Shown here piece by piece: positions 11,721-44,985 of a stretch of 63,660 nucleotides of DNA. The stretch is from Clostridia bacterium (lineage in GTDB: Bacteria; Bacillota; DSM-521; Neomoorellales; SLTJ01): contig SLTJ01000019.1 in NCBI GenBank assembly GCA_004347685.1, positions 1-63,660 of the forward strand. The letters run 5' to 3'. The position numbers and the translations under genes were made by a program. A model generated the notes under the pieces. The model was given only the letters and a program-made list of their open reading frames with translations. It searched no databases and had not been told where the DNA came from. Position 1 is the first letter of the stretch. Each line of letters opens with the position of its first letter.

Positions 11721-14700
11721 TCACCCGCATTTGCTGTAACCGCAAGTACAGACCAGACAACCCTCCTGGAAGCGCAGGGGCGCGTGGCAGTCCGGGCAAA
11801 TTCCCCGCCGCAGCAATTCTCCCTCCTCCAGCCCGTCCAGGTCCTGGTCTTCCCGCCCGTCCACGTCTGGATCCGCCGCCGCACTGCAGGCTTCCACGGC
11901 GGCCTGCAGCTCGTCGGCCACCGCCGCCAGGGCCGCCCGCGCATCCTTCCCTTCCTCTTTCAACTCGCGGGCCAGTACCCGCCCGATGATGTCCGGGCAG
12001 GACTTGCCCACAATGGACGGGTCAGTGGCCTTGCGGCGCAGGTAGTTGGAACAGCTAACCGAGGTTAACTGGTCAATAATGGCCTCAGGCGCGATATTAG
12101 CCCGCAGGGCCAAGGAGATCAACCGGCTGACGCCCTCGGTGAATCCCTGGCACCCGCCGGTGGACCCGGTGGTAATAAAGGTCTCAATAATCCCCTCCTG
12201 GTCCGAGTTTACGGTGATATACATTTTGCCGCACCCGGTCTTTACCTGCTCGGTCACCCCTATGGTGCGCTTGGGCCGCGGCCGGGGATACGTCTTTTTC
12301 CGCCTGGCCGCCTGCTCCTTTTCTTGGCCACTTCCCTTGCCCACGGTCATAACTTCCTCTTCCCGGCTGCCGGAGCGATAAACAGTGACGCCCTTGCACC
12401 CCAACCGGTAGGCCAGCAGGTAGACTTCCTCCACCTCCTGCTTGGTGGCTGTGGCTGGGAAATTAACCGTCTTGGAAACAGCATTATCGGTAAACTCCTG
12501 GAAGGCGGCTTGCATGCGGATATGCCACACCGGGCTGATCTCCAGGGCGGTGACGAAAACCTTACGCATGGCCATGGGGATTTCTTCCACGTCCTGGACA
12601 CTGCCGGTGGTCGCCACCCGCGCAAAGATCTCCTTAGCCTGTTCCGGGCTGAAATTTTCCCGCACGTATTCTTCAAAGGCCGGGTTTATCTCCAGCAGAT
12701 GTTCCCCTTCCAGCACGTTCTTGGTGAAAACCAAAGAAAACACCGGCTCAATTCCGGAGGTGGTACCGGCGATCATGCTGATGGTGCCGGTAGGGGCAAT
12801 GGTGGTGCAGGTGGCGTTACGCATCTGCTGACCACGGTAAACGCTCTGCTCAATATTGACGAAACTCCCACGCTCGGCGGCCAGTTCCCGGCTGGTACGG
12901 TGCGCCGCCTCCTGGATTGTCCCCATGACCTTGCGAGCCAGGTCAATGGCCTGCTCGCTGTCATAGGCGATGCGCATCTTGAACAGCATGTCGGCCCAAC
13001 CCATGACTCCCAGGCCGATCTTACGGTTGCCCCGGGTCACCGCGGCGATTTTCTCCAGGGGGAACTGGTTGACTTCAATGACGTTGTCCAGGAAACGCAC
13101 GGCCAGGCTGGTAATCTCCTCCAGCTTGTCCCAGCGGACATGACCATCCTCAACCATATGGGCGAGGTTGATGGATCCCAGGTTACAGGCCTCGTAGGCC
13201 AGGAGCGGCTGTTCGCCACAGTTATGGGCGTAGATGCCGTTGGCGTCAAAGGCGCCTGCGCCGGGAACCCGGACATCATACACGTCCTCAGCCCCTTCGC
13301 CTTCGACGGAAAGAACCGTGGCCACAAACCGCTCACGGTTCATGTCGCGGCGGTAGGCTTTCAGCAGCAGTTCAAGCTTTTGCTCCTTCTCGACGTCTCC
13401 AAAACTGATCTGCCCGGCGAAACGGGCCAGGTTATCGCCGGTAATGACCAGCTCGTGCTGCGCCTTCACCTGGTACTCCCTGGTACCCCCTTTTCCGTCT
13501 GGCATTGGTCTCCCACCTGCCGGCCGCCGGTCCTCGTATATGGTGCTGGCAATGCCCAGCCTAAGCAGCATGCGCTGGACCGCGCGTAGGAGTCTCAGAT
13601 CACTCTGGGCCAGGCGGATGCTAACACCCTTTTTCTGGCTACCCTGGACCGATCCATCACAGTCAAAAAGACCGCGCAGGAAGCCACGGTAACCGTCTGA
13701 CGAAGCGCGTTCGATCTCGGGGGTCACTGTCTTCATCCCCGGCCGCATTCCCATGCGCCTAGCCAGGCGCATGAGGCCGGCCGACTTGAGGCGGAATTCG
13801 TTTCGCCCCCTGACCCAGACCCACCCCGTAAAGTCAGAACGATGGGGCAGCGCCATAACGTGCTTCAAGGCGAGCTGCATAACAGAAGTCGCCCCGGCTC
13901 CTGCGGCCAGGCCGCAGGCCACCTCTTCCCTGGTCCACACCGACAGTACAGCCGTGTCTTCCTTTAGCACTCCGTCTCCTACAAGAAGGCCAAGCAGGTA
14001 GCCTTCACCCTCACCCAGCTCTCCAGGCCAGCCGGTCAGTGCCCTATGGTTATGCAACAAAATCTTATCGCCCGGCTTTAGCTCGTTGACCGGGACCCAT
14101 TCGGAGGTGAGGCGGTAACGCGTCTGATCAACTACTAGGAGGATATGGTGGTCTGGAGTGAGCCGCACCTGGTATCCTTCCCGCGTCGTCAGCCGGACAA
14201 CTGTCTTGGTCCCAGTTTTGAAAAAACCTTCCCGGCCCGTTACGCAGGGCCGCCCGTTGATAATTACCTCAAAGGGCCGACCGACCAGCTCGTATGCTTG
14301 GCGAGGGCCTTCACTGGTAGCCACCCATGTATCCCCGGTAACACAGGGGTTGGTGGCTTCAATTTCGCCCAGGGCCGGGGTGGGATTCCCGGCGTTGAGA
14401 CGGTCCAGAAACACTATCCCCGGCTCACCGTTGGCCCAGGCGTGCTCCACAATCAGGTCAAAGATTTCCCTGGCCTTGAAGCGGTCGTATATCTTGCCCC
14501 CGAACTCCAGGTCATAGTAACCATCGTTCTCCAAGGCCTCCATGAACTCCCGTGTCAAGCCCACGGAGATATTGAAATTAGTTAGATCATGGTTGCCCTC
14601 TTTGGCGCGGATGAACCCCAAGATATCCGGGTGGTCCACCCGCAGGATGCCCATGTTGGCCCCGCGCCTGGTCCCGCCCTGCTTGATGGCCTCGGTGGCG

Positions 14701-15155
14701 GCATTGAAGACCTTCATGAAGGAGACCGGGCCGCTGGCAATGCCGCCGGTACTGCGCACCGGGCTGTTTTTGGGCCGCAGCCGGGAAAAGCTAAAGCCAG
14801 ACCCTCCCCCTGACTTGTGAATAAGCGCCGCATCCTTCACCGCTGTGAAGATTTCCTCCATGCTATCCCCCACGGGGAGCACGAAGCAGGCTGAAAGCTG
14901 CCCCAGGTCCCGCCCAGCGTTCATCAGAGTAGGGCTGTTAGGAAGGAAATCCAAGTCCGTCATCATTTGGTAAAATCTCGCGGCCATCTCTTGTACGCGT
15001 TCAGCGGGAATGTCTGGATTAAACTCCTTTTCCGCCCCGGCCACAGTTTCGGCCACCCGGCGAAACATATCTTCCGGGGCTTCCACTACGTTATTCCCTT
15101 CTCTTTTCAGGTAACGCTTGACTAAGATTGTCCTGGCATTTGGGGTAAGCTCCAT
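11721..15155 (-). CDS. nrdJ: Adenosylcobalamin-dependent ribonucleotide reductase, intein-containing
   Basis: 1144 residues as encoded, about 769 after protein splicing. Class II reductase making deoxyribonucleotides without oxygen, using a B12-derived thiyl radical. Visible are the N-terminal ATP-cone-like start, SPTLMNAG, LSACFVLPVGDSM, KSGGGSGFSFSRLRP, ASGPVSFMKVFN, the catalytic loop NPC-GEQPLL and ATCTTIAPTGTIS. The C-terminus CPDCHAPLRF...CTCGYSKCG supplies the redox cysteines plus a Zn-ribbon-like end. An intein interrupts the catalytic loop (separate entry). ATG 15155 follows a GGGGGGAAAGGA ribosome site. Confidence 0.96.
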   Translation of the reverse strand: MELTPNARTILVKRYLKREGNNVVEAPEDMFRRVAETVAGAEKEFNPDIPAERVQEMAARFYQMMTDLDFLPNSPTLMNAGRDLGQLSACFVLPVGDSMEEIFTAVKDAALIHKSGGGSGFSFSRLRPKNSPVRSTGGIASGPVSFMKVFNAATEAIKQGGTRRGANMGILRVDHPDILGFIRAKEGNHDLTNFNISVGLTREFMEALENDGYYDLEFGGKIYDRFKAREIFDLIVEHAWANGEPGIVFLDRLNAGNPTPALGEIEATNPCVTGDTWVATSEGPRQAYELVGRPFEVIINGRPCVTGREGFFKTGTKTVVRLTTREGYQVRLTPDHHILLVVDQTRYRLTSEWVPVNELKPGDKILLHNHRALTGWPGELGEGEGYLLGLLVGDGVLKEDTAVLSVWTREEVACGLAAGAGATSVMQLALKHVMALPHRSDFTGWVWVRGRNEFRLKSAGLMRLARRMGMRPGMKTVTPEIERASSDGYRGFLRGLFDCDGSVQGSQKKGVSIRLAQSDLRLLRAVQRMLLRLGIASTIYEDRRPAGGRPMPDGKGGTREYQVKAQHELVITGDNLARFAGQISFGDVEKEQKLELLLKAYRRDMNRERFVATVLSVEGEGAEDVYDVRVPGAGAFDANGIYAHNCGEQPLLAYEACNLGSINLAHMVEDGHVRWDKLEEITSLAVRFLDNVIEVNQFPLEKIAAVTRGNRKIGLGVMGWADMLFKMRIAYDSEQAIDLARKVMGTIQEAAHRTSRELAAERGSFVNIEQSVYRGQQMRNATCTTIAPTGTISMIAGTTSGIEPVFSLVFTKNVLEGEHLLEINPAFEEYVRENFSPEQAKEIFARVATTGSVQDVEEIPMAMRKVFVTALEISPVWHIRMQAAFQEFTDNAVSKTVNFPATATKQEVEEVYLLAYRLGCKGVTVYRSGSREEEVMTVGKGSGQEKEQAARRKKTYPRPRPKRTIGVTEQVKTGCGKMYITVNSDQEGIIETFITTGSTGGCQGFTEGVSRLISLALRANIAPEAIIDQLTSVSCSNYLRRKATDPSIVGKSCPDIIGRVLARELKEEGKDARAALAAVADELQAAVEACSAAADPDVDGREDQDLDGLEEGELLRRGICPDCHAPLRFQEGCLVCTCGYSKCG
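13221..14345 (-). other. Intein within nrdJ (375 residues, LAGLIDADG type)
   Basis: In-frame insertion at residues 271-645. It starts with Cys (CVTGDTWVAT, splicing block A) and ends GIYAHN, with Cys of the extein next (CGEQPLL). Block B is present (TPDHHILLV). Two homing-endonuclease motifs, YLLGLLVGDGVL and GFLRGLFDCDGSV, mark a LAGLIDADG (DOD) endonuclease. All splicing residues (Cys1, block B His, penultimate His, terminal Asn, Cys+1) are visible, so it should splice. The +1 Cys is the reductase's own thiyl-radical cysteine. Confidence 0.93.
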
Positions 15156-18289: not shown

Positions 18290-19201
18290 CTACACCAGGA
18301 GCATGGGGATAAAGGTCCAGAGCAACAAGATGAAGATGGCCACATAGATGATCAACTCTACCACCATCAGGGGCAAACTCTGGCTGAACGGGGAATGCCC
18401 TTCCCCGTCAGGTACCAACATCCCCTTGGCCTTATATTCCTGCACCAGCCGGTCGTACTCCAATGGGTGTTCTTCCTTCAGGTGCTCCCGGTTGATGGTG
18501 CCGTCCCACCAAACCCGGCTGGTGGGAAAAACCTTCGGGCTGAAATGGGCGGCGAAGAAGTGGCCCACCACCAGGGCCAGCATGGCGACAAAGGCTTCAT
18601 TGGTGTGCACTACCCGGCCCACGTCCAAGGCCCACCGCGGCCAGAAGACAAACAACTGCGGGAACCAGAGCATGATGCCGGAGAAGCCCATGACGATGAC
18701 ACCCCAGATGACGGCGAAGTACTCGAATTTTTCCAACCAGGTGTAGCGATCAAACTGGGGCGGGTCCGGCCGCAATCCCAGCAGGTACTGGATATGCTGG
18801 ATAGCGTCCCGGACATCCTTGTAACTCGGCATCATCGCGATGTCCGGGCCGCGATTGTATTCGTGGCTGATCTTGGTAAACGCGTCGGTGGGGCTGTAGG
18901 TGACCGGCTTGCGCTCCTTGTTCCTAGAGGTAACGAAGCTATAGGCCAGCCAGATTACGTGGTAGAGGGCGCACAGGATCATGATTACCCCAAAGGCCAG
19001 GTGCACATGGAACATATTCTCAAACCCGCCGAAGAGGTTGACTGCATATTGGGCCCAGTCCTGGGCCGCGTACTTGATGGGAAAGCCAGTTATAATCAAC
19101 ATCAAAACGCTTATAGCCATGCCCGCGTGCTGGAAACGCTGCTGCAGGTTGAAGCGCTGTATCTTGACCGGCAGTTCCAGAGCCTTTTGGTTGGCTGCCA
19201 T
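18290..19201 (-). CDS. Membrane cytochrome b (cassette A)
   Basis: 303 residues. Four-helix cytochrome b561/dihaem cytochrome b core (about residues 25-235), with His in the membrane segments (RFQHAGMAISVLML, MFHVHLAFGVIM, LYHVIWLAYSF, VHTNEAFVAMLALVVGHFFAAHFSP). A fifth C-terminal helix follows (LPLMVVELIIYVAIFILLL). This fold usually passes electrons between the menaquinone pool and periplasmic-side cytochromes. It is directly downstream of a heptahaem cytochrome c, so the pair is probably a quinol:cytochrome c module. The paralogue at 21599 lacks the fifth helix, which is encoded there as a separate 38-residue gene. Confidence 0.87.
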   Translation of the reverse strand: MAANQKALELPVKIQRFNLQQRFQHAGMAISVLMLIITGFPIKYAAQDWAQYAVNLFGGFENMFHVHLAFGVIMILCALYHVIWLAYSFVTSRNKERKPVTYSPTDAFTKISHEYNRGPDIAMMPSYKDVRDAIQHIQYLLGLRPDPPQFDRYTWLEKFEYFAVIWGVIVMGFSGIMLWFPQLFVFWPRWALDVGRVVHTNEAFVAMLALVVGHFFAAHFSPKVFPTSRVWWDGTINREHLKEEHPLEYDRLVQEYKAKGMLVPDGEGHSPFSQSLPLMVVELIIYVAIFILLLWTFIPMLLV

Positions 19202-19218: not shown

Positions 19219-20148
19219 CTATCGGGTCCGCCCGGCCTGGATCCCGTGGCCTTTCCGCCGCCCCCTGATCTGTTTGATCAGATCCAGGATGATAATGGGC
19301 AGGTCTTTAATAATGTCCACCATGATCAGCAGCAGGAAGATCTTCCAGGTGATCCAGAGAGGGAAACCCTTTTCCCGATCTCTTATGGTGGTATGCTCAA
19401 TACCAGCCGCCCAGTTGGCCACCGGCTCCCCGCCATGGCACGCGACGCAGCGGGCCGGCAGGTTATCCGGGTGGGTGCTGGAGGCCGGGTCGCTAGCTGG
19501 AAGTATCTGGTGGGCCGTGTGGCAGTCGGCACAGTTGGCCGCCCGCTCATAGCCCAGCTTATTGGCTGACCCATGGAAGCTCCATTGGTAGGCTTCCATG
19601 ACCCCTCCCTGGTGGCAGCGGCTGCAGTTGGCCACCACGTTGGCCCGGTTGTGCAGGGCTTGCGGGTTATCCTGCGGCTGGATGTCGTGGGTACCGTGAC
19701 AGTCGCTGCAATAGGCGGTACCTGCTGTCCCGGCTGCGGCCAGTTTCCCGTGGATGCTGGCCTGGTAGTCCTGCCCCGCCTGGGCGTGACACTGGCTGCA
19801 ATTGGCAGTAACTTCCCGGGCCAGTTCCGCGCCGTAGACCGGCTTTTGGTGCGGAAAAGCCTGGGTACCAGTGTGGCATGATGTACATGCTATTTGGGCG
19901 TGGACCGAGTTCTCCATAACCTGGGGGTCAACATAAAGAGAGATCTCCCGCTCGCCCCGGGTTGTCTTCAGGTTGGGCTGGCTGTGGCAGGAAAGGCAGG
20001 CCTCGTCACCGGCAGGCTGGGCCGCGGCCGCCTGGCCGGCCAGGTACAGGAGGAAAAATAAACCGGAAAAGGTGAAGGCCACAAAAACCAGTACAAACAG
20101 GCCGGTTATCAGATAGGCGGTAAGGTGCCCGGCATTTTTGGTCCACAT
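19219..20148 (-). CDS. Membrane-anchored heptahaem cytochrome c (cassette A)
   Basis: 309 residues with seven CxxCH haem-binding motifs (near residues 51, 88, 117, 147, 175, 206 and 234). Anchored by an N-terminal helix (10-38) and a C-terminal helix (263-289), with the haem domain outside the cell membrane. Extra His residues follow the motifs (SIHGK, SFHGS, GIEHT) and are probable distal ligands. It is the likely redox partner of the cytochrome b 17 bases downstream; terminal acceptor unknown (extracellular metal, thiosulfate- or nitrite-type reductases are all possible). Confidence 0.9.
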   Translation of the reverse strand: MWTKNAGHLTAYLITGLFVLVFVAFTFSGLFFLLYLAGQAAAAQPAGDEACLSCHSQPNLKTTRGEREISLYVDPQVMENSVHAQIACTSCHTGTQAFPHQKPVYGAELAREVTANCSQCHAQAGQDYQASIHGKLAAAGTAGTAYCSDCHGTHDIQPQDNPQALHNRANVVANCSRCHQGGVMEAYQWSFHGSANKLGYERAANCADCHTAHQILPASDPASSTHPDNLPARCVACHGGEPVANWAAGIEHTTIRDREKGFPLWITWKIFLLLIMVDIIKDLPIIILDLIKQIRGRRKGHGIQAGRTR

Positions 20149-20254
20149 GCAAACTCACTCCTTTCATAGGTGAGTCTGCCGCAAGACTTGCTCTCAAGGC
20201 TTGCAGCCTTAACGGAGTGAGTCTGTCGGGCATGCTGACTCTGCGGCCGGAAGG

Positions 20255-20383
20255 CTAGAAAACAAGGTAGTACAGCAGCGTCCCCAAGAAGCCGATACCA
20301 GCCGCGGCGATCAGAACAAATACGGCTACAAACCAAGCGGTGAATACATAGGTTAGAGCGTTACCCAGGGTCAGACGCAGCAT
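20255..20383 (-). CDS. 42-residue single-helix membrane protein
   Basis: A short frame starting MLRLTLGNALTYVF, one transmembrane helix with a small charged N-terminus, ending YYLVF. A good ribosome site (GAGGTG, 7 bases upstream) supports translation. It precedes the cassette A cytochromes by about 105 bases, so it is probably a small subunit of the cytochrome complex. It is not related by eye to the 38-residue protein of cassette B. Confidence 0.6.
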   Translation of the reverse strand: MLRLTLGNALTYVFTAWFVAVFVLIAAAGIGFLGTLLYYLVF

Positions 20384-20483
20384 CAGGGCTCACCTCTTTT
20401 CTTGAAAGAATTCGGTGGCCTCTTGACTTGGAGCCTATTGACCTGGACGCTATAGCCTCCCCTGAGGGCAATAGCCGACAAGC

Positions 20484-20675
20484 TTATCTCTGACCACGCA
20501 GGTCGGCCACGACCTGCCTTTCACCCTCCTCCTCCGGTCCGAGCCTGTACTCGATGTTAACCAGTCCTTTGGTGTGGATGTAAATATACCGTTTACAATG
20601 GCGGCACTTGATAATCACCGTATCCCCTTCTAGCTGGCAGACTATCTTCTTGCACTGGCAGCGGAAGTTCTCCAT
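20484..20675 (-). CDS. Com-like zinc-ribbon microprotein 1
   Basis: 63 residues. CQC-KKIVCQLEGDTVIIKCRHCKRY supplies paired cysteines (CxC/C ... CRHC) as in the phage Mu Com zinc ribbon, a translational activator. It is one of four related copies in 3 kb interleaved with cytochrome genes. It sits upstream of the 42-residue gene and the cassette A cytochromes. An RNA- or DNA-binding regulator of the cassette is the likeliest role; a metallochaperone or small cytochrome-assembly factor is also possible. Family resemblance seen, function inferred. Confidence 0.65.
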   Translation of the reverse strand: MENFRCQCKKIVCQLEGDTVIIKCRHCKRYIYIHTKGLVNIEYRLGPEEEGERQVVADLRGQR

Positions 20676-20710
20676 GTTCAGCCCCCCTGATAAATTGTGT
20701 CGAGAGACAA

Positions 20711-20744
20711 AAAGGCTAGCACCTGGAAATGGGTGCTAGCCTTT
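20711..20744. terminator. Bidirectional 13-bp hairpin terminator
   Basis: AAAGGCTAGCACC at 20711-20723 pairs perfectly with 20732-20744. It is followed by T-runs on both strands. It lies between the degenerate and intact zinc-ribbon copies, so upstream transcription would stop or be attenuated here. Confidence 0.8.
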
Positions 20745-20794
20745 TGGCTTCCGGCCTAATGGCTGCTGACCTCAAGCTGTCTTATGTTATTTAC

Positions 20795-20956
20795 TTAAGT
20801 CTGGGCACCAGGATAAGCTATATCATCCTTCAGCTTATATTCTAACTCAACTACCCCCCTGGTGTAAATACAAATGTAGCGTTTGCAGTGGCGACATTTT
20901 ATGATTACGGTATCACCTTCTACCTGGCAGACAATTTTTTTACAGGCACAGCGAAC
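20795..20956 (-). pseudogene. Com-like zinc-ribbon copy 2, start codon lost
   Basis: The frame reads VRCACKKIVCQVEGDTVIIK then CRHCKRYICIYTRGVVELEYK and stops at 20795. All zinc cysteines are intact. In place of the expected Met-Glu-Asx start there is TAA immediately before the Val codon. Either the start was lost recently or a non-standard initiation is used. It is closest to copies 1 and 3. Confidence 0.6.
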
Positions 20957-20995
20957 TTATTGCACCGGGGTTCACTCCATCCTCCAGCCCGCTAG

Positions 20996-21178
20996 CTAGA
21001 GGGCTACCAGGTGTCGATTCTGCCGGCTGTCGCTATCCTCCAGCCGGGTTTCCATGGCCACCGGGGGACCGCCCATACGGATGACAACGTACCTTTTGCA
21101 GTGACGACATTTGATAATGATTTCATTGCCCTCTACTTGACAGATGATTTTGTGGCAGGTGCAGCGAACGTCCTCCAT
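20996..21178 (-). CDS. Com-like zinc-ribbon microprotein 3
   Basis: 60 residues beginning MEDVRCTCHKIICQVEG with CRHCKRYVVI. Four Cys are arranged as in the other copies, with a variable C-terminal tail. A G-rich ribosome site (GGAGGGGGGGAG) lies upstream of ATG 21178. It is the first gene after a predicted sigma-H promoter (21383-21409), with a terminator-like hairpin in the leader (21214-21235), so its expression may be attenuated. Confidence 0.65.
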   Translation of the reverse strand: MEDVRCTCHKIICQVEGNEIIIKCRHCKRYVVIRMGGPPVAMETRLEDSDSRQNRHLVAL

Positions 21179-21213
21179 GGTCTCCCCCCCTCCTTTGGCG
21201 TCGGTGTCAATAG

Positions 21214-21235
21214 AAAAGGCCAGCTCAGGCTGGCC
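21214..21235 (-). terminator. Leader hairpin before zinc-ribbon gene (attenuator candidate)
   Basis: GGCCAGC/GCTGGCC stem with a 4-base loop at 21218-21235, followed on the minus strand by TTTTCTATT. It lies between the sigma-H-like promoter and the gene start at 21178, so it could act as an attenuator rather than a final terminator. Confidence 0.6.
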
Positions 21236-21382
21236 AGATACCTGCTCTCTATCGCCTCCGACTCAGCCTTGCAAATCAGGTCTGGGCTATTCTGTTGACT
21301 GTTTACACAACGATACTCATTTCTTTTACCATTTACTCCTTGCAGCTCAAGCTTAGTTCTTGATATCTTTTTCACTTAGTGT

Positions 21383-21409
21383 ATTCTACGTGAGCTTCGA
21401 GATTCCTGC
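21383..21409 (-). promoter_or_regulatory. Sigma-H (Spo0H)-type promoter
   Basis: GCAGGAATC, a 13-base spacer and AGAAT match the sigma-H consensus (RWAGGAWWT, about 13-14 bases, HGAAT). It faces the zinc-ribbon microprotein gene and cassette A. Confidence 0.6.
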
Positions 21410-21420
21410 CATCCTCCCAA

Positions 21421-21468
21421 AAAAATTTTGGCCGGCCGGAGCCCCAAATCCAGAGCCCCGACCGGCCG
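21421..21468 (-). terminator. Terminator after cassette B
   Basis: CGGCCGG/CCGGCCG stem with a 22-base loop, directly followed on the minus strand by AAAATTTTTTT. It is placed after the stop of the 38-residue membrane protein and overlaps the approach to the sigma-H-type promoter. Confidence 0.6.
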
Positions 21469-21492
21469 CATTGCTTATCTGACTCAAGCCGG

Positions 21493-21609
21493 CTACCGCA
21501 GTCCAAAAGGCAAGAAATAGTACAGGAATACACCCAGAATCACAGCGTAGATAACCATTTCAGCGATTATCAAGCCCCGGCTCCTGGAATACTTGCTATC
21601 AGCGGCCAT
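21493..21609 (-). CDS. 38-residue single-helix membrane protein
   Basis: The short frame begins MAADSKYSRSRG, then a single helix (LIIAEMVIYAVILGVFLYYF) and ends FGLR. Its ATG overlaps the last codons of the cytochrome b gene, so translation is coupled. The helix resembles the extra C-terminal helix of the cassette A cytochrome b (LPLMVVELIIYVAIF...), so this is a split-off version of the same subunit element. Confidence 0.65.
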   Translation of the reverse strand: MAADSKYSRSRGLIIAEMVIYAVILGVFLYYFLPFGLR

Positions 21610-22423
21610 AATTCTTCACCCCTACCGGCCTTACTTGTGACTTGCCGCGCCCGGTTGCTACCGGCATCCTCTCTTCCAGTTCGCGCAGTTCGTCCGGATG
21701 TTCTTCCTCCATCAACTCCCGGTTCATCTTCCCGTGGAACCAGACGAAGTTCATGGGGAAGAAGGTCGGGTTAAAGTGGACGTTAAAGAAGTGCCAGACA
21801 AAGATGGCCAGAATGGCCAGCATGGCTTCGTCGCTGTGAGCGTAACGGGCAGCATCAATGATCCAGCGCGGAAAGTACTCGGCAGCCAGGTGCGGAAACC
21901 ACATCATCAGCCCCGAGCCACCCATAATGGCCATGCCCCAAAACACTGCCCAGTAGTCAAACTTCTCTTTGTAGGAGTAACGCCCGAACTTCGCCTTTTC
22001 CGGGCTTAGCCCCAGAAAATACCTCATGTTCTGCAGCAGGTCCAGCACGTCCTTCGGCGTAGGCAGCATGGCCAGCCCGGGGTAAGAAGCCAGGCCCCGG
22101 GAGATCTTCCGGTATGCCTCGGCCGGCGGATACTTCCTGGTGGTGGCTGGTTTCCGAACCACCAGCGGGTAAATGACTAGATATACCAGGTGGTAGGCCG
22201 AGCAGGCAAGCATGACCACCGCTCCTACCAGGTGGATCGCAAACATGGTGTCAAATCCGCCGAAAAAGGATGTCACAGCCGGCGCCCAGAAGCTTCCATT
22301 GTACTTTATCGGCAAGCCGGTAATAGTACATAGGATGAAGCTGGAGAACATCATGATGTGCTGTATCCGGTGGTGGATATTAAAGCGCTGGAATTCGCCG
22401 GCCTTGGCTGTTTCTCGGGCCAT
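21599..22423 (-). CDS. Membrane cytochrome b (cassette B)
   Basis: 274 residues, a clear paralogue of the cassette A protein: RFNIHHRIQHIMMFSSFIL, MFAIHLVGAVVMLACSAYHLVYLV, AHSDEAMLAILAIFVWHFFNVHFNPTFFP. Haem-ligand His residues are in the same places. It lacks the fifth helix, supplied by the overlapping 38-residue gene. It lies 19 bases downstream of the cassette B heptahaem cytochrome and is probably its menaquinol-side partner. Confidence 0.87.
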   Translation of the reverse strand: MARETAKAGEFQRFNIHHRIQHIMMFSSFILCTITGLPIKYNGSFWAPAVTSFFGGFDTMFAIHLVGAVVMLACSAYHLVYLVIYPLVVRKPATTRKYPPAEAYRKISRGLASYPGLAMLPTPKDVLDLLQNMRYFLGLSPEKAKFGRYSYKEKFDYWAVFWGMAIMGGSGLMMWFPHLAAEYFPRWIIDAARYAHSDEAMLAILAIFVWHFFNVHFNPTFFPMNFVWFHGKMNRELMEEEHPDELRELEERMPVATGRGKSQVRPVGVKNYGR

Positions 22424-22442
22424 CAGATCACCCTCCTTCGCC

Positions 22443-23309
22443 CTACCGGCTGCGGCCTGTGTCCTTCAGGCGCCGGTACAGCTCGAGTTCCATATGAATG
22501 ATAAGCAAGGTCATGGCCAGGATGGTCAACCAGGTAAAGAATTTGAAGGTATAGTACATGGGCATCCCCGGCCCCTCGGGTGCCAGTTCAAAGTGCTCTA
22601 TCCCGGCGGCAAAGTTGGTCTGCGGCGTTTGGTGGCACTGGGCGCATGTCTGGGGTATATTCGCCCTGGCCACCCGAGATGCCGGGTCGTCCTGGGGCAG
22701 GATGTCGTGGCTGCCGTGGCAGCTCACACAGGAAGCCGCCTGGGTGCTGCCGAGAGAAATGGCCTTGCCGTGAAAACTCTCTTCATAGCTTTCAATGATC
22801 TGCTTTTCATGGCAACTGCCACATGTCTCCGGCAGATTCTTGGCGTATGCTTTCGAAGCCGGGTCGCTCACCGGCAGGATGTCGTGACTGCCGTGGCAAC
22901 TGCTGCAGGTGGCCACACCGGTCTGAGCATGAATACTTTTCTTATAGTCCTCGGCTATCCCGGCGTGGCAGGTCTGGCAGGCAGCCTGCACTTCCCGGGC
23001 TAGAGCCAGGTCGTACTTCACGTCTGCATGCGGCAATTTATCTTTGCCCTGGTGGCAACTAGCACAATCCAGGCCAGCATGGACCGTCTGCTGCAGTTGC
23101 TTCTGATCCACGTAGAGTGAAACCTTCTGGCCGTCAACCTCGGCGCTCAACTGGGGCTGCCCGTGACACTGCAAGCACTGCGCGTTTTTCTGGCTCTGGC
23201 TTCCTTCCTCGGCGAAGGCAACCGCGGGCGTAAAGGCCAGGAAGATGGCGAGGACTATTACGCTGCCCAGGAGGATAATTAGCCCGCGGTTGCATTCATA
23301 GGGATACAT
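22443..23309 (-). CDS. Membrane-anchored heptahaem cytochrome c (cassette B)
   Basis: 288 residues with seven CxxCH motifs (near residues 45, 82, 111, 135, 163, 194 and 222). N-terminal signal or anchor helix (9-32) and C-terminal helix (about 252-276). Repeated CHGSHDILP blocks suggest internal duplication of a haem-pair unit. Motif spacing parallels the cassette A protein, so the two cassettes are paralogous. Cytochrome maturation genes are not in the window. Confidence 0.9.
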   Translation of the reverse strand: MYPYECNRGLIILLGSVIVLAIFLAFTPAVAFAEEGSQSQKNAQCLQCHGQPQLSAEVDGQKVSLYVDQKQLQQTVHAGLDCASCHQGKDKLPHADVKYDLALAREVQAACQTCHAGIAEDYKKSIHAQTGVATCSSCHGSHDILPVSDPASKAYAKNLPETCGSCHEKQIIESYEESFHGKAISLGSTQAASCVSCHGSHDILPQDDPASRVARANIPQTCAQCHQTPQTNFAAGIEHFELAPEGPGMPMYYTFKFFTWLTILAMTLLIIHMELELYRRLKDTGRSR

Positions 23310-23341
23310 AGCCGTAAGCTCACCCCTTTCCCTTCAGCCCG

Positions 23342-23497
23342 CTAGCGATACTCAACGGCTACCTTGCCTTCCTGCTCGTTGATTATGCCTTTGGTGTTGA
23401 CAATGACCAATCTCTTGCAGTGGCGGCACTTGATGATCACCAGGTTGCCCTTGATCTGGCAGACTATTTTCCCGCACTTGCAACGCAGGTCTTCCAT
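23342..23497 (-). CDS. Com-like zinc-ribbon microprotein 4
   Basis: 51 residues: MEDLRCKCGKIVCQIKGN, IIKCRHCKRLVIVNTKG, ending VEYR. Same Cys pattern as copies 1-3, directly upstream of the cassette B cytochrome c (32-base gap). With copies 1 and 3, this gives each cytochrome cassette its own zinc-ribbon gene in the 5' position. Confidence 0.65.
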   Translation of the reverse strand: MEDLRCKCGKIVCQIKGNLVIIKCRHCKRLVIVNTKGIINEQEGKVAVEYR

Positions 23498-23528: not shown

Positions 23529-23729
23529 CTACAGCGGCCAGAACGGAGGCCACACCACGAAAACAGCCAGAACGGTAACCACGGCAAAGGTGGCCACGGC
23601 CAGCCCGGCGAAGGCCAGAGCCCGGCCTACCAGATTCTTGACGGCGAACTTGTAACCGGTCAGGTACCACGCGACCAGGACGCTGAACAGGGCGAGCAAA
23701 ACCACTCCAGCCAAATAAATAACTGCCAT
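23529..23729 (-). CDS. Small two-helix membrane protein
   Basis: 66 residues with two transmembrane segments (about 4-23 and 37-60) and a short basic loop (GYKFAVKNLVGRAL). A ribosome site (GGAAGGAGG) supports ATG 23729. It is the first gene of cassette B, 31 bases before the zinc-ribbon gene. Probably a small cytochrome-complex subunit; no known family recognised. Confidence 0.6.
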   Translation of the reverse strand: MAVIYLAGVVLLALFSVLVAWYLTGYKFAVKNLVGRALAFAGLAVATFAVVTVLAVFVVWPPFWPL

Positions 23730-23853
23730 TTTAATTCCTCCTTCCTGGATTTGTTAAGAATGCACCGGTACGTCTGCTGACCCCTGTGCCGTCACTGCCT
23801 GCCGCCTGCTTCAGCCTTACTTCCCCTTGCGCCTTTCACCCCCTTAAAGCAGT

Positions 23854-23882
23854 AAAGGCCAGCGGTATGAAACCGCTGGCCT
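23854..23882 (-). terminator. Intrinsic terminator 2 upstream of cassette B
   Basis: Perfect 10-bp stem AGGCCAGCGG/CCGCTGGCCT with a 7-base loop, followed on the minus strand by TTTACTGCTTT. Confidence 0.65.
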
Positions 23883-23956
23883 CCGGGCTTGGTGCCTCTG
23901 GGCTCGCCTTTTACGGCTATGTATTCTTTAATTAAAAATGCCGGCTTTATGGAGAC

Positions 23957-23982
23957 AAAAAGCCAGCATTCAAGATGCTGGC
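23957..23982 (-). terminator. Intrinsic terminator 1 upstream of cassette B
   Basis: GCCAGCAT/ATGCTGGC stem with a 5-base loop, followed by TTTTTG on the minus strand. Likely the end of transcripts from ddl or from the sigma-H promoter at 24353. Confidence 0.75.
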
Positions 23983-24352
23983 CTCCGGACTTACAGTCTC
24001 AGGACTTTGTCTTTATCGCCGCCCCGGAATCCCCTGGCCGGACTAGAACGTCTCAGGGAATTACCCTGCCGCCCGCCGGACCTTCCGCCTTTTCCGAAGC
24101 GCTGTTTATTCTCTTGTCAGAACAGCTCACTCGAGCCTTGTAAGAACTAGTACTACTTTAGCCGTAACTACTCCGCCTCACCGGCTATCGGACGGCCATG
24201 CTCACCGTTGCCGCTCGCCCTGACCCTTGTGGACCAGATTGACTTTCGGTGGAGACCACCTGCCGGCCAGGCAGGCTGTGCAGTTACTGGCACGCTTTAA
24301 CGACCCTCTCCCCCTCTCCAACCATCCTCTTTCTCTTTGTCTTAGTACTATA

Positions 24353-40151: not shown

Positions 40152-40982
40152 TCAGGCCGATTTCTTGTCCAACTTGGCGACTAGTTCTTTCAAATGGGCC
40201 ATGTCAGTGGGAGTCGGGATGTACACCTTGTCATTGGCCAAAATCTTCCTGGCTAGGGAGCGATATACTTCCGCCTGATCAGAATCGGGGAAAGTCTGAA
40301 TGACCGTTTGCCCCTTGAACTCGGCCTGCTGTACCAACTTGGATCTCGGGATATGTTGGATCACAGGCACCCCCAACACCTCGGCAAAGGCCTCAACTAT
40401 ATCTTCCTCATGAGCCACACCACGCATGTTGTTTATCAGCCCGGCCACGCCTACATCTACTCCCAGACTGTTAACCTTGACCACAGCCTTAGCTATGTTG
40501 TTGGTCTGGTAGATGCTTAATAATTCCCCACAGGTGACCAGGTAGATCTCCCGAGCGAAGCCGGCACGCATAGGCTGGGCAAACCCACCGCAAACCACAT
40601 CCCCGAGCACATCGAACAGGGCGAAGGTTATGCCATACCTTTCCAGGACCTTGAACTTATCCAGCAGCTGCAGGGCGAGGTTAACACCCTTGCCGGCACA
40701 CCCGGTTCCGGGCTTGGGGCCACCGCTCTCGCAGCCCAGAATGCCGTTATACCCCTCAAAAATAACTTCGCTAAGTATTTTTTCGTCCACCACGTCAAAC
40801 TTGCGGACCTGATCCATGATGGTCGGCATTAGCCTGCCGCACAAGGTGGCAATAGAATCACGCTTAGGGTCACAGCCGATCTGCATTACCTTCTCACCCA
40901 TGTGGGAAAGGGCCGCACTCAGGTTTGAGGAGGTGGTTGACTTACCTATTCCGGCTTTGCCATATACAGCTATCTTCTTCAC
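40152..40982 (-). CDS. Nitrogenase-like Fe protein 2 (NifH/BchL family)
   Basis: 276 residues. P-loop [21 protein letters not shown], cluster cysteines Cys95 (GTGCAGKGV) and Cys131 ([15 protein letters not shown]). These are all hallmarks of ATP-driven homodimeric [4Fe-4S] electron donors. The Arg of the canonical GCAGRG motif (ADP-ribosylation site in NifH) is Lys here, and the P-loop has Ala for Gly. It is the last gene of the D-K-H-H operon, 33 bases after Fe protein 1, followed by a terminator. Specificity unknown. Confidence 0.9.
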
Positions 40983-41015
40983 CTTTCTCCCTCCTGTTCT
41001 ATGAAAAAAAGTATC

Positions 41016-41867
41016 CTAGGATAGAGCGCCTTCGTACTTCTGCATCAGGCCCATTATATCTTCCAGTTCTACAGGCCTGGGTATTTTCGTTGGTTGCCCG
41101 GCCCGGTTCAGGATATTTTGGGCCATTTCCTCGTATACCTTGGCCTGTTCAGATTCCGGGAAGAACTCCATGACTGTGCCTCCTTGGGCCTCGGCCTCCT
41201 GTACCTTGGGCGACCTAGGCACATAAGCCATAACCGGAATGCCTATCCTCTCCGCAAACTCTTCAACCAGATCCCGCTCGAAGTCCATATTACGCATGTT
41301 GCAGATTAGGCCGGCCACGCCTACGTTAGCCCCGGTTCTGGCCAGCTCGGAGATGGCGATACAGATGTTGTTGGCCGAATAAAGAGCCATAAGCTCACCA
41401 CTGAGGACAATGTAAACCTCATTAGCGTAACCGCGCCGCATAGGCTGGGAAAAACCACCACACACCACGTCAGCGATAACATCATAAACCAAAAAGTCTA
41501 CGCCCAATTTATTGGGAATATCATACTGTTTAAGGAGATCCAGAGCCAGGGCACTTCCCCGTCCCGCACAGCCCTCGGCCGGTTCAGGCCCTCCGGCTTC
41601 AGCACAATAAATGTCGCGGTACCCCTTCTTGACGGCCTGCATGACTGTGTCCTCATCCTGCCCCTTAATCCGGGAAAGCTCCAGGATGTTTTCCGTCGGC
41701 GGCTCACCTCCCAGCAGGGAGGCGGTAGAATCAACCTTGGGTGAACATCCAACTACCATTACCTTCCGCCCCCTGTTCTGCAGCGCCACCGCAACATTGG
41801 TCCCAACGGTGCTCTTGCCAATGCCGCCCTTACCGTACAGGGCTATTTGTCTGATATCATTAGCCAT
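41016..41867 (-). CDS. Nitrogenase-like Fe protein 1 (NifH/BchL family)
   Basis: 283 residues. P-loop YGKGGIGKSTVGTN, cluster cysteines Cys100 (EGCAGRGSA) and Cys136 (DVIADVVCGGFSQPM). CSPKVDST has Ser for the Asp39-equivalent of CDPKADST. It keeps the Arg in GCAGRG, unlike Fe protein 2. Clearly diverged from its neighbour, so the two are old paralogues rather than a recent duplicate. Presumed to deliver electrons to the D/K-like component 51 bases upstream. Confidence 0.9.
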   Translation of the reverse strand: MANDIRQIALYGKGGIGKSTVGTNVAVALQNRGRKVMVVGCSPKVDSTASLLGGEPPTENILELSRIKGQDEDTVMQAVKKGYRDIYCAEAGGPEPAEGCAGRGSALALDLLKQYDIPNKLGVDFLVYDVIADVVCGGFSQPMRRGYANEVYIVLSGELMALYSANNICIAISELARTGANVGVAGLICNMRNMDFERDLVEEFAERIGIPVMAYVPRSPKVQEAEAQGGTVMEFFPESEQAKVYEEMAQNILNRAGQPTKIPRPVELEDIMGLMQKYEGALS

Positions 41868-41918
41868 ATCACTCGCCCCCTGATTTTTGGCTTGTTGCTC
41901 CCTCGCTAGTACGTTGCT

Positions 41919-43340
41919 CTACAAAGTCGGGTTGCACCCGCGGAAGCCTGCTTGCACGATTTCGTCATAAGGAGTATCCCTCTTGATATACGACCTGGCT
42001 ATCCAACCACCCTTTTCAGACTTGACTTCATCAGTTACCCGGGCCATCTCAGTTAATAGGTGCAGGGTTCCCAGCACCCCGGCATAGGGCCAGGGAATAA
42101 AGGTAAAGTGATTAAAATAGTAAAATCCCCCCAAGCCAAGGTGCGGGATCTTTAACCCTTCTACTAAGGTCCGGTCGTTCTTCTGGCCGATGGCAAAATC
42201 TACGTTTTCCTCAACCAGCATCCGGCCATACTGGTAATAGGACGGGTCATCCAGCACCTTCATGTCCACGTACGGCGCTATTTCTTCCAGTTGTTTCTTG
42301 GCTACCTCCATGGCCCGGTCCGTCTCAGCCCAGAGACCAACCACCGCCGGCCTGGCATTCAAATCAAAGAACAGGTATCTGGCCATGGCGGCGGCAAAAG
42401 TTGAGTAACCCAACACGCCTACCCGCTTACCCGCCACATCGTGCATGACCCAACTGGCATTGTAGTCGTTGGCGATACGTCTCCTCACTCGATTCATGTC
42501 TGTCTTGAGCTGCTTCTTTGCCTTCTCGACATCGCCAAAGCGCTCCGCTATTTTGAGGTACCATTCTTCTGTATTGGCCAGTCCATAGGGGAGGACGACA
42601 TCAGTACCCCAGTTCTCCATCCCCAGTTCTGCGGTTACTGCCTCAAAATCTGGCAATACTTCTGGTGTCAATACGTAGTTGGCCTCAGCCTCACAGAAAC
42701 GCTCGAGATCGGAAATCCTGGTGTTAAAAGTAAGATGGACGTTAACCTGCACATCGGCAGCTTCGAGGAGCCTGACAATCTCGTAGGTATCATCAATCAT
42801 GTTGCGACTGCCCATCATGTGGTGGCCGATAATATTTATCTTCCCTTTTTGCGGCTTGCGGCTCTTATCGGCAAACCGGTCAATCAAAGCCCGGTAGACC
42901 ATCTGAGCTCCCAGGCGGTAGCCTCCCTGAAAACCAGGGGTATCCAGGGGAATAATGGGCACCCCGGTTTCCCCTTCCACCTGCCGGGCAACTCCCACTA
43001 AGTCGTCCTGGACCATACTGGTGGCGCAAGCGGATAGTAGCCAGATGGCATCCGCCCGACCCTTGTACCTGTTGGCGACTTCCCGCACCCTGTCGCGCAT
43101 TTTAGGCGTGCCACCGTAAATAAGATCGGCCTGCTGTACGGCGGTGTGGAAGATGGGCACGTTGGTGCCGTCAGGCACATTGTTGCTGCGAAAGTGAGTG
43201 TTGCTTATGGAGCAACCTGAAGGGCCGTGATTTACGACCACCGTCCCGTCAACCATCGAGGCGGCCATCACTGCGCCCATTTCCATACAGGGTTGAAACT
43301 TATCTACAATCTTATCCTGGGCCTTGACTGTTTCTATCAC
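41919..43340 (-). CDS. Nitrogenase-like component 1 beta subunit (NifK-like)
   Basis: 473 residues from GTG 43340, chosen because a G11-AAAG ribosome site precedes it; the longer frame runs into the upstream gene. Three cysteines match P-cluster ligands of NifK-type subunits: Cys18 (FQPCMEMGA), Cys43 (NHGPSGCSIS), Cys105 (LLSACATSMVQDDL). Later Rossmann-like segments (KINIIGHHMMGSRNMIDD, KRVGVLGYSTFAAAMARYLF) fit the family. Shorter than NifK. It pairs with the D-like subunit 19 bases upstream. Confidence 0.85.
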   Translation of the reverse strand: MIETVKAQDKIVDKFQPCMEMGAVMAASMVDGTVVVNHGPSGCSISNTHFRSNNVPDGTNVPIFHTAVQQADLIYGGTPKMRDRVREVANRYKGRADAIWLLSACATSMVQDDLVGVARQVEGETGVPIIPLDTPGFQGGYRLGAQMVYRALIDRFADKSRKPQKGKINIIGHHMMGSRNMIDDTYEIVRLLEAADVQVNVHLTFNTRISDLERFCEAEANYVLTPEVLPDFEAVTAELGMENWGTDVVLPYGLANTEEWYLKIAERFGDVEKAKKQLKTDMNRVRRRIANDYNASWVMHDVAGKRVGVLGYSTFAAAMARYLFFDLNARPAVVGLWAETDRAMEVAKKQLEEIAPYVDMKVLDDPSYYQYGRMLVEENVDFAIGQKNDRTLVEGLKIPHLGLGGFYYFNHFTFIPWPYAGVLGTLHLLTEMARVTDEVKSEKGGWIARSYIKRDTPYDEIVQAGFRGCNPTL

Positions 43341-43359
43341 TGCTTTCCCCCCCCCCCGG

Positions 43360-44880
43360 TTAGCCCTGAAGCTCAAAATCAAAGGACTTGCTGCCCCGCA
43401 ACCTGCCATATAGCGTTGGCCGCCGTCTAGGATCATCCTTCCGTTCGGCTGCCATGACAGCGGCGATTACGTCGCGGGCCATCCCTTCCGTGCCGCGAAA
43501 GCCGACATCCCGGGGCCGACATTTCGTCCGCCTGAATGGTTGACCGATATTATCTACGATTGGAACATTGGCTGCATCCCAGGCGTCGGCCCGCGCATAG
43601 GCAAAGACATCATTATGCATGTAAACCACGTCGTGGGGATCAACGTTTATCAGCTCCGCCATCTGGATGGCGGAAAGGGGCTTTTGCTCGGCATAGGGAC
43701 CGAATAGTATCAGGGGATCCACTCCATCGGAAATGAAATAACGCATGGTTTCTTCTTTAGCTTTTACGGCCAGGGGGTGCATCTCAAAGATATATGGGGT
43801 CATGCCGAGTTCCATGGCAAAACGGGCCTGGGCCAGGGGTCTGGTGGCGGCAGCCTGCACCATGCGCACCCCGTCAATGAGGGCCACTTTCCCTTTGGCC
43901 ATTTGCCTGGCCTTTTCCCAGGTCTCCTTTATAACATCATATTCCCGATTAATGAACCTGGCGGCTTCGTCTCTCACTCCCATGAACTCGGCCAGTTCGT
44001 TGATCCACCTTATCGTAGTCTCGACGCCAATGGGTTTACCGTGCTTCATATATGGAGTACCAAAACGCTTCTGCATCTCTTTGGCCAGCGGATACCCCCA
44101 GCAGGTGCAATCAATGGCATTGACCGCCGCTTCAGGAGCAGTACGGAAGTATTCATAATCACCGCCGAACAGGGCGCGATGCATCTTCAAACCTATTCCT
44201 TCAACGGTTCGGGCCAGTTCATGGGCATTGGTCGGATAGACGGGATCCCACCGTTTGCGTTCTGGCATTCCCGGGCCGCTGAACATGTCCTTGTACAGGC
44301 CAATAATATTAACTGCTTTAGGGTCAACTTTTTTGGGCGGATCCATGATCTGTGTATAGAGAGGCACATTTAGCTCAGCGACATCTCCGGTCCAGGTGCA
44401 GGAGAAACCTTCGCTGGGAATAAATACAATTTTTGCCTTAACTTCGTCCTTGACAGCATCGATGGCCTGTGGGATATCGTCCATATTGAGACCAGCACAG
44501 CAGTTGGAATGGACTATGATTAAGGGTGGGTGATACTCCCGGTCAGCCCGGCGCAGCGTTTCCTGCAATTCATCTTCCCCGCCCAGGATGACCTGCTTGT
44601 TGCCCATGTTACTGGTAGGGATATGTAGAAACGGGAGGCCAAAATGTTCTTCAAAATGAATGCCGTGGAATACCCTGCCCGAGGCCTCACACCCCAGCGG
44701 ACCGTGTACAACCACAACGATGTCGTCCAGCATACCGGTAAGGGTGACCATCCACTGCCAACGGCACCAAATACCCCAGGCAGCCGGAAACTTCTCTTCA
44801 ATTTGTTTTTGCGCCTTGACAGGAGGAGTTTCTTCCAGAACCTCGCTCAGGCGCCGTAATTCGTAGCCTTCCAGTGCCAT
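43360..44880 (-). CDS. Nitrogenase-like component 1 alpha subunit (NifD-like)
   Basis: 506 residues from ATG 44880 (AAGGGGGC, 7 bases upstream). P-cluster-type cysteines Cys39 (GIWCRW), Cys64 (VHGPLGCEASG) and Cys127/128 (SNCCAGLNMDDI). Cys258 (AVNAIDCTCWGYPL) lies where NifD has the cofactor ligand Cys275. No clear counterpart of the homocitrate/FeMo-co His442 is visible: the PFRRTKCRPRDVGFRG region lacks His. So it can probably hold a P-type cluster and perhaps another cofactor or substrate, but not a standard FeMo-co. First gene of the operon. Confidence 0.85.
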   Translation of the reverse strand: MALEGYELRRLSEVLEETPPVKAQKQIEEKFPAAWGIWCRWQWMVTLTGMLDDIVVVVHGPLGCEASGRVFHGIHFEEHFGLPFLHIPTSNMGNKQVILGGEDELQETLRRADREYHPPLIIVHSNCCAGLNMDDIPQAIDAVKDEVKAKIVFIPSEGFSCTWTGDVAELNVPLYTQIMDPPKKVDPKAVNIIGLYKDMFSGPGMPERKRWDPVYPTNAHELARTVEGIGLKMHRALFGGDYEYFRTAPEAAVNAIDCTCWGYPLAKEMQKRFGTPYMKHGKPIGVETTIRWINELAEFMGVRDEAARFINREYDVIKETWEKARQMAKGKVALIDGVRMVQAAATRPLAQARFAMELGMTPYIFEMHPLAVKAKEETMRYFISDGVDPLILFGPYAEQKPLSAIQMAELINVDPHDVVYMHNDVFAYARADAWDAANVPIVDNIGQPFRRTKCRPRDVGFRGTEGMARDVIAAVMAAERKDDPRRRPTLYGRLRGSKSFDFELQG

Positions 44881-44985
44881 TAAATCAGCCCCCTTTCCGA
44901 ACATTTTTCCTCAAAAAGAAGATGCGGCAACTACTATTCTTCCTTTTCAACCTCCTTGCAGACAAAAGTATATCTCTATATGCCC

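Follow-up and report, generated by a model that had tools for sequence, protein, structure and literature searches.

Com of phage Mu, which acts on mom mRNA, is known so far, in openly searchable papers, as a single-target phage regulator. Systematic evolution of ligands by exponential enrichment (SELEX) with its zinc finger yielded CC(N)2-3GAG in hairpin loops, with an invariable C-G closing pair and a crucial GA; the motif was bipartite, two copies being present in 868 of 999 sequences (PMC6483171). Other RNA-level systems make a protein-dependent choice between terminator and antiterminator, including TRAP attenuation, the ribonucleic antiterminator (RAT) of BglG/SacY and the ANTAR/EutV-NasR systems, the latter reading two tandem mini-hairpins of which the second is exclusive with an intrinsic terminator, in many copies over operons (PMC3369931). 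Here we describe a family of Com-like zinc-ribbon proteins and an associated leader RNA element from a 63,660-nucleotide stretch of Clostridia bacterium DNA (GenBank assembly GCA_004347685.1, contig SLTJ01000019.1, positions 1 to 63,660; hereafter the window), where they accompany two gene cassettes for heptahaem c-type cytochromes. The sequence data lead us to propose, with a probability of about 0.72, that these ribbons are chromosomal Com-type RNA-binding regulators acting by antitermination through tandem hairpins, the cytochrome operons being among their targets.

The element was found through repeats in the window, and its motif recurs at nearly every ribbon locus. It consists of AG-Y-C, a 4-nucleotide (nt) loop and G-R-C, followed after a short spacer by the same again, with the second copy running straight into an intrinsic terminator; in the leaders of both cassettes it takes the form AGUC-CNGA-GACU then AGUC-CAGA-GGC, i.e., two tandem mini-hairpins. 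Hairpin 2 and the terminator stem share three bases, which end the former (as its 3′ arm) and begin the latter, and the two structures are hence mutually exclusive. Three clear copies are present in the window, all on the minus strand, as are the other cassette features given below. E1 (23954 to 24006) reads AGTC-CTGA-GACT and then AGTC-CGGA-GGC, overlapping the terminator GGCCAGCAT..ATGCTGGCTTTTT, and scored 63.3 bits (whole-genome E 7.5e-13) with R1, a covariance model of the element used for genome scans. E2 (23851 to 23904) comprises AGCC-CAGA-GGC, AGCC-CGGA-GGC and the terminator GGCCAGCGG..CCGCTGGCCTTT (54.8 bits, E 1.2e-10), and E3 (20707 to 20764) has variant loops, AGCC-ATTA-GGC and AGCC-AAAA-GGC, before the terminator GGCTAGCACC..GGTGCTAGCCTTTTT (47.3 bits, E 9.4e-9). 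These were the only strong R1 matches in the host genome, all within the present cluster. Leaving aside matches to the opposite strand of these hairpins, nothing elsewhere scored better than an E of 0.1. Weak host-genome matches (L050 to L052) were rejected, two of them being plain terminators and L052 lacking the tandem pair. The sequence-only reading of this DNA had overlooked the element, which lies mostly outside the interval it discussed.

The tandem core pattern gave 75 matches in 28 loci versus 0 to 2 in each of ten Markov simulations. In oriented loci, 65 of 72 matches were on the ribbon-gene strand and 7 on the opposite one, and 55 of the 68 gene-strand matches overlapped intrinsic terminators, compared to 41 of 560 random positions. 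An alignment of 37 sequences revealed both-sided (compensatory) changes in 7 of the 9 terminator pairs and in the middle pair of hairpin 1. These features bear on the possibility that the ribbon is a DNA-binding transcription factor with the repeats as its operators: zinc ribbons are able to bind DNA and AGTC-N4-GACT is an inverted repeat, but the strand bias is marked and repeat 2 overlaps a terminator with a covarying stem and a T-run, neither of which an operator requires, making this explanation very improbable. Identity with a known riboswitch or leader family was also rejected, as the window element region had no Rfam 15 match at E <= 1 and the elements at L035, L038 and L026 had none above gathering, a single overlap in L026 (sok, 28.1 versus 59 bits) being sub-threshold and at chance level. 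The element is absent from Rfam and previously undescribed; no description of such a ribbon or element was found in openly searchable papers, subscription literature being outside the scope of the search.

The loops left free by the search pattern, which constrained only the last position to a purine, proved to be C-N-G-A closed by C-G, with CCNGAG present in 49 of 55 copies of hairpin 1 and 48 of 55 copies of hairpin 2. The likeness to the Com SELEX target was noticed only after the motif had been defined in this analysis. Com-type targets are seen as sequence motifs in two forms, nearly all elements carrying CC(N)1GAG and the leaders of the second heptahaem cytochrome CC(N)2GAG. The loop agreement provides strong, albeit not exact, support for Com-type recognition. 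Loop sequence also varies with the neighbouring paralogue: the elements just upstream of ribbons of the FRCxCKK type carried variant loops (NNTA, A-rich) in 6 of 6 cases, while those upstream of other ribbons were canonical in 26 of 26 (p 1.1e-6). Both loop kinds occur in the window, canonical in E1 and E2 and variant in E3. Such a pattern fits that of cognate protein-RNA pairs.

The window encodes three intact zinc ribbons, of 63 amino acids (aa) (FRCxCKK type, 20484 to 20675), 60 aa (CHK type, 20996 to 21178) and 51 aa (CGK type, 23342 to 23497), each identified by open reading frame (ORF), alignment and profile. A degenerate fourth copy (about 20798 to 20959) retains the conserved body (VRCACKKIVCQVEGDTVIIKCRHCKRY...), but its ATG start codon has been replaced and an in-frame TAA stands directly ahead, in agreement with the earlier count of four copies, three intact and one without a start codon. 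Aligned to the first copy, the others are 57 to 64% identical. A four-copy profile detected no fifth ribbon in the 3.1-Mb host genome (next match E 0.7). Across the ribbons of 35 relatives, C6, C8, C24, C27, R25, H26 and K28 are invariant, whereas C13 is replaced by S, A or F in some; the four invariant cysteines therefore point to a CxC...CxxC metal site with four zinc-type ligands.

Profile comparison aligned the ribbon to Mu Com at 95.9% hhalign probability (36% identity over 33 columns), and gpCom (PHROG 13819) matched 29 of 35 family members (best E 1.3e-5). The Pfam Com family (Zn_ribbon_Com, PF10122) matched 5 of 35 members at E <= 0.1 (best E 0.0048), the best window copy scoring 15 bits against a curated cut-off of 22.9, and Pfam and NCBIfam searches of the ribbons gave no match above cut-off. 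By sequence, then, the ribbons are Com-like by descent, as remote homologues outside curated Com membership. An AlphaFold2 model (predicted local distance difference test score 67) has three strands, consistent with a ribbon; Foldseek found no significant match to it in the Protein Data Bank (PDB), and no structural claim is drawn. Assignment to a solved structure by sequence was discarded, since only short matches to CRHC-type PHD fingers appeared (E 0.005). As in the Com/mom pair, the ribbons are Cys4 zinc-ribbon proteins of 50 to 65 aa encoded directly upstream of their supposed target, and the target leader has CC..GAG hairpin-loop motifs in a bipartite site. Unlike Com, they are chromosomal, belong to Bacillota respiratory operons rather than a phage, occur as several paralogues per genome and, besides falling below the Pfam cut-off, have CxC where Com has CxxC in the first knuckle of the N-terminal four-cysteine finger (predicted zinc site CxC/CxxC, not CxxC/CxxC). 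The element spacer is 1 nt versus 2 to 3 nt in the Com target, and the proposed system would act mainly on an intrinsic terminator, where Com acts on a translation-initiation hairpin. No ribbon homologues were found in phages, viral contigs or plasmids, so a location like that in Mu, upstream of mom, was not encountered and an origin in these sources was rejected on the zero matches. The sequence-only reading had considered that homologues might lie mostly in prophages with no linkage to cytochromes; neither the absence of matches in those sets nor the genomic contexts below bear this out. A distant ribbon branch (L132 to L140; RCICNRLIC..IEIKCxKCKR, with a KCKR end) lacks the RHCK signature and falls outside the present family; a by-eye look at the neighbours of five of its loci (L132, L133, L135, L137 and L140), made without a profile search, recognized no prophage genes.

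A scan with one genome per species recovered 27 ribbon loci, all in Bacillota-type records and most with a seven-haem cytochrome just downstream. Among 398 genomes of the phylum, the ribbon was present in 43, the element in 29 and both in 27 (Fisher p = 1.7e-28, shared ancestry ignored); the two ribbon-less element genomes are only 61 to 63% complete and come from a family whose other sampled genomes have both. The heptahaem cytochrome was found in 34 genomes, 28 of which also carry the ribbon, and the element was present in 26 of these 28 versus none of the 6 cytochrome genomes without a ribbon (p 2e-5, shared ancestry again ignored), which indicates that the element tracks the ribbon, not the cytochrome. 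The ribbons, the element and its covariation, and their linkage and co-occurrence are established at the level of sequence. The earlier claim that the ribbons always lie 5′ of cytochrome genes holds in the window and not in all relatives, where some ribbons (L126 to L129, L141) are solo, with no heptahaem cytochrome. Ribbons with neither the cytochrome nor an R1 match come from Thermanaeromonas-like genomes and one other genus, and lie between D-Ala ligase and ribonucleotide reductase genes, neighbours they share with the ribbons of the window. Two such solo ribbons, of the FRCxCKK type (L126, 5872 to 6072; L129, 1023 to 1205), have these neighbours without a cassette, suggesting cassette gain or loss plus a further ribbon target.

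The sequence-only reading had offered two roles for the ribbons, RNA-binding regulators or haem/metal assembly factors. The first is well supported by the Com homology, close genomic linkage to heptahaem cytochromes and a tandem-hairpin leader with a Com-type motif, although binding itself is inferred. The second, in which the ribbons would serve the cytochromes in haem/metal assembly or in a redox capacity, draws on the multihaem cytochromes in the genomic neighbourhood and the resemblance of CRHCK to CxxCK haem sites. However, no export signal is visible in the ribbons, while c-type haem attachment is extracytoplasmic; ribbons persist without a heptahaem cytochrome; and the RNA element would be left unexplained. 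We regard this role as most improbable.

The distribution data also bear on whether another RNA-binding factor (an ANTAR response regulator, CsrA or an unknown protein) reads the attenuator, with the ribbons acting otherwise in the same operons. The element is laid out like the dual hairpins of ANTAR targets (PMC3369931), ANTAR proteins are present in 17 of 20 element genomes and CsrA in 19 of 20, and CGGA loops contain a CsrA-type GGA. CsrA is so widespread that co-occurrence does not tell against it. Yet three element genomes (G059, G389 and G102) have no ANTAR protein, and G059 and G389 are 99% complete with 5 to 6 elements; the 4-nt CNGA loops differ from the hexanucleotide loops with A1 and G4 that ANTAR proteins target; and the ribbon genes, unlike those of ANTAR regulators, sit inside the regulated operons. 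The commonest second loop, CAGA, has no GGA, and GGA in both loops is rare, in disagreement with what defines a CsrA/RsmA site. Ribbon-free genomes lack the element even where the heptahaem cytochrome is present. A different reader is thus quite unlikely. BglG/SacY RAT and TRAP, alike in the protein-dependent choice between terminator and antiterminator, are set apart by their descriptions (PMC3369931 and general knowledge), involving an unrelated protein and RNA motif.

In several genomes, elements also lie a long way from every ribbon gene and precede nuoK, atpI/atpB, a major facilitator superfamily (MFS) transporter, an AAA/VWA pair, a ferredoxin-MinD protein, B12-radical SAM proteins and a hexahaem cytochrome; such remote copies imply a diffusible factor. 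In Thermincola-like genomes (L110, L112, L114, L116, L118, L119 and L125), the element occurs as a doubled variant ahead of an operon that encodes an MFS transporter and two uncharacterized proteins.

Taken as an antitermination circuit, the system would work as follows. In the default state, each operon's leader RNA would fold into the intrinsic terminator and transcription would halt. The ribbon protein, probably as two copies or a dimer, would bind the two tandem mini-hairpins with their C-G-closed CNGA loops; these should need protein for stability because their stems have just 3 to 4 pairs. With hairpin 2 held shut, the 3 nt (GGC/GAC) that open the 5′ arm of the terminator would be removed from it and RNA polymerase would continue into the ribbon's own gene and the operon for the heptahaem cytochrome and cytochrome b, a putative menaquinol-oxidizing module. 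Paralogous ribbons appear to be matched to different loop sequences, and the same element before other energy-conservation genes (nuo, atp and others) in relatives would make this a trans-acting regulon. Direct binding, antitermination rather than termination, and positive autoregulation are what we infer from these patterns, and the signal may possibly be zinc, iron or redox state sensed via the Cys4 site.

A second output may exist at the level of translation. In the leader of heptahaem cytochrome 2 (20149 to 20255), ACTCACTCC is predicted to pair with the Shine-Dalgarno sequence GGAGTGAGT, with CCTTGAG, a Com-type CC(N)2GAG, in between; the same arrangement, ACTCA(C/T)TCC pairing with the Shine-Dalgarno sequence around CC(N)2GAG, is found in four genomes (the window, L019, L025 and L026). 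A weak candidate element, E0 (20385 to 20442; GGTC-AATA-GGCT, AGTC-AAGA-GGCC; R1 10.9 bits, E 0.048 in 6.4 kb), overlaps a hairpin that, by fold prediction, would cover the Shine-Dalgarno sequence of a 42-aa ORF. They hint at possible control of translation like that of mom. They would also favour Com-type translational activation as the only mechanism, the ribbon opening Shine-Dalgarno-covering hairpins in the way that Com does on mom mRNA and the terminators being secondary. The overlap of 55 of 68 pattern matches with terminators argues against this, and the Shine-Dalgarno pairing was seen in just four loci; we consider such a restriction to translation unlikely.

Several observations weigh against antitermination by Com-type ribbons. 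The spacer of the element is shorter than any in the SELEX motif, and co-inheritance of linked neighbouring DNA could yield the same association between loops and paralogues. The co-occurrence tests take genomes as independent of phylogeny, and 16 ribbon genomes, with solo ribbons or distant members, have no R1 match, meaning that ribbons can exist without the element; L130/G087 has a variant element that is recognizable by eye and was missed by R1. In the window, a terminator-like hairpin (21218 to 21235) lies just upstream of the 60-aa ribbon, without clear tandem hairpins. The hairpin core is nearly invariant, in part fixed by the search pattern, and covariation is not demonstrated in hairpin 2. 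Finally, the case is built on sequence, with binding and expression as predictions.

The genes of the window form two operon-like groups, both read from right to left. The first begins after E1 and E2 with a 66-aa hydrophobic, probable membrane protein (23529 to 23729), similar small membrane ORFs coming after elements in L123 and L142. It continues with the 51-aa ribbon, heptahaem cytochrome 1 (22443 to 23309; seven CxxCH motifs and hydrophobic stretches at both ends), b-type cytochrome 1 (21599 to 22423; PF01292, Ni_hydr_CYTB/formate dehydrogenase gamma-like) and a 38-aa probable one-helix membrane protein (21493 to 21609). The second comprises the 60-aa, degenerate and 63-aa ribbons, the 42-aa ORF, a probable one-helix membrane protein (20255 to 20383), heptahaem cytochrome 2 (19219 to 20148) and b-type cytochrome 2 (18290 to 19201; PF01292). 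Elsewhere, the window encodes a 1144-aa ribonucleotide reductase (11721 to 15155, minus strand) with an apparent intein, the 759-aa L126 homologue having no insert; a nitrogenase-like cluster (40152 to 44904, minus strand) with two NifH-like and two NifD/K-like proteins, identified by eye; and a BREX anti-phage system (56004 to 63552, plus strand) in which PADLOC detected BrxA, BrxB, BrxC and PglX.

If the proposal is true, Com-type proteins would form a family of regulators encoded on chromosomes, with antitermination as their second mechanism, an RNA code that is defined, and protein-RNA pairs that are naturally orthogonal. The parts are small, a 26-nt double hairpin and a 50-aa protein, and hence quick to test and perhaps to use. 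There is about an even chance, in our estimation, that the system is a new class of protein-dependent antitermination in which paralogous ribbons, each with its own loop variant, constitute a self-contained circuit that coordinates extracellular or menaquinol-linked respiration (multihaem cytochromes, complex I and ATP synthase) in Bacillota through both terminator and Shine-Dalgarno outputs. Regulation by the ribbons as proposed would also provide an RNA-level control point for the expression of multihaem cytochromes in metal-reducing and electroactive Gram-positive bacteria, for example Thermincola and Carboxydocella.

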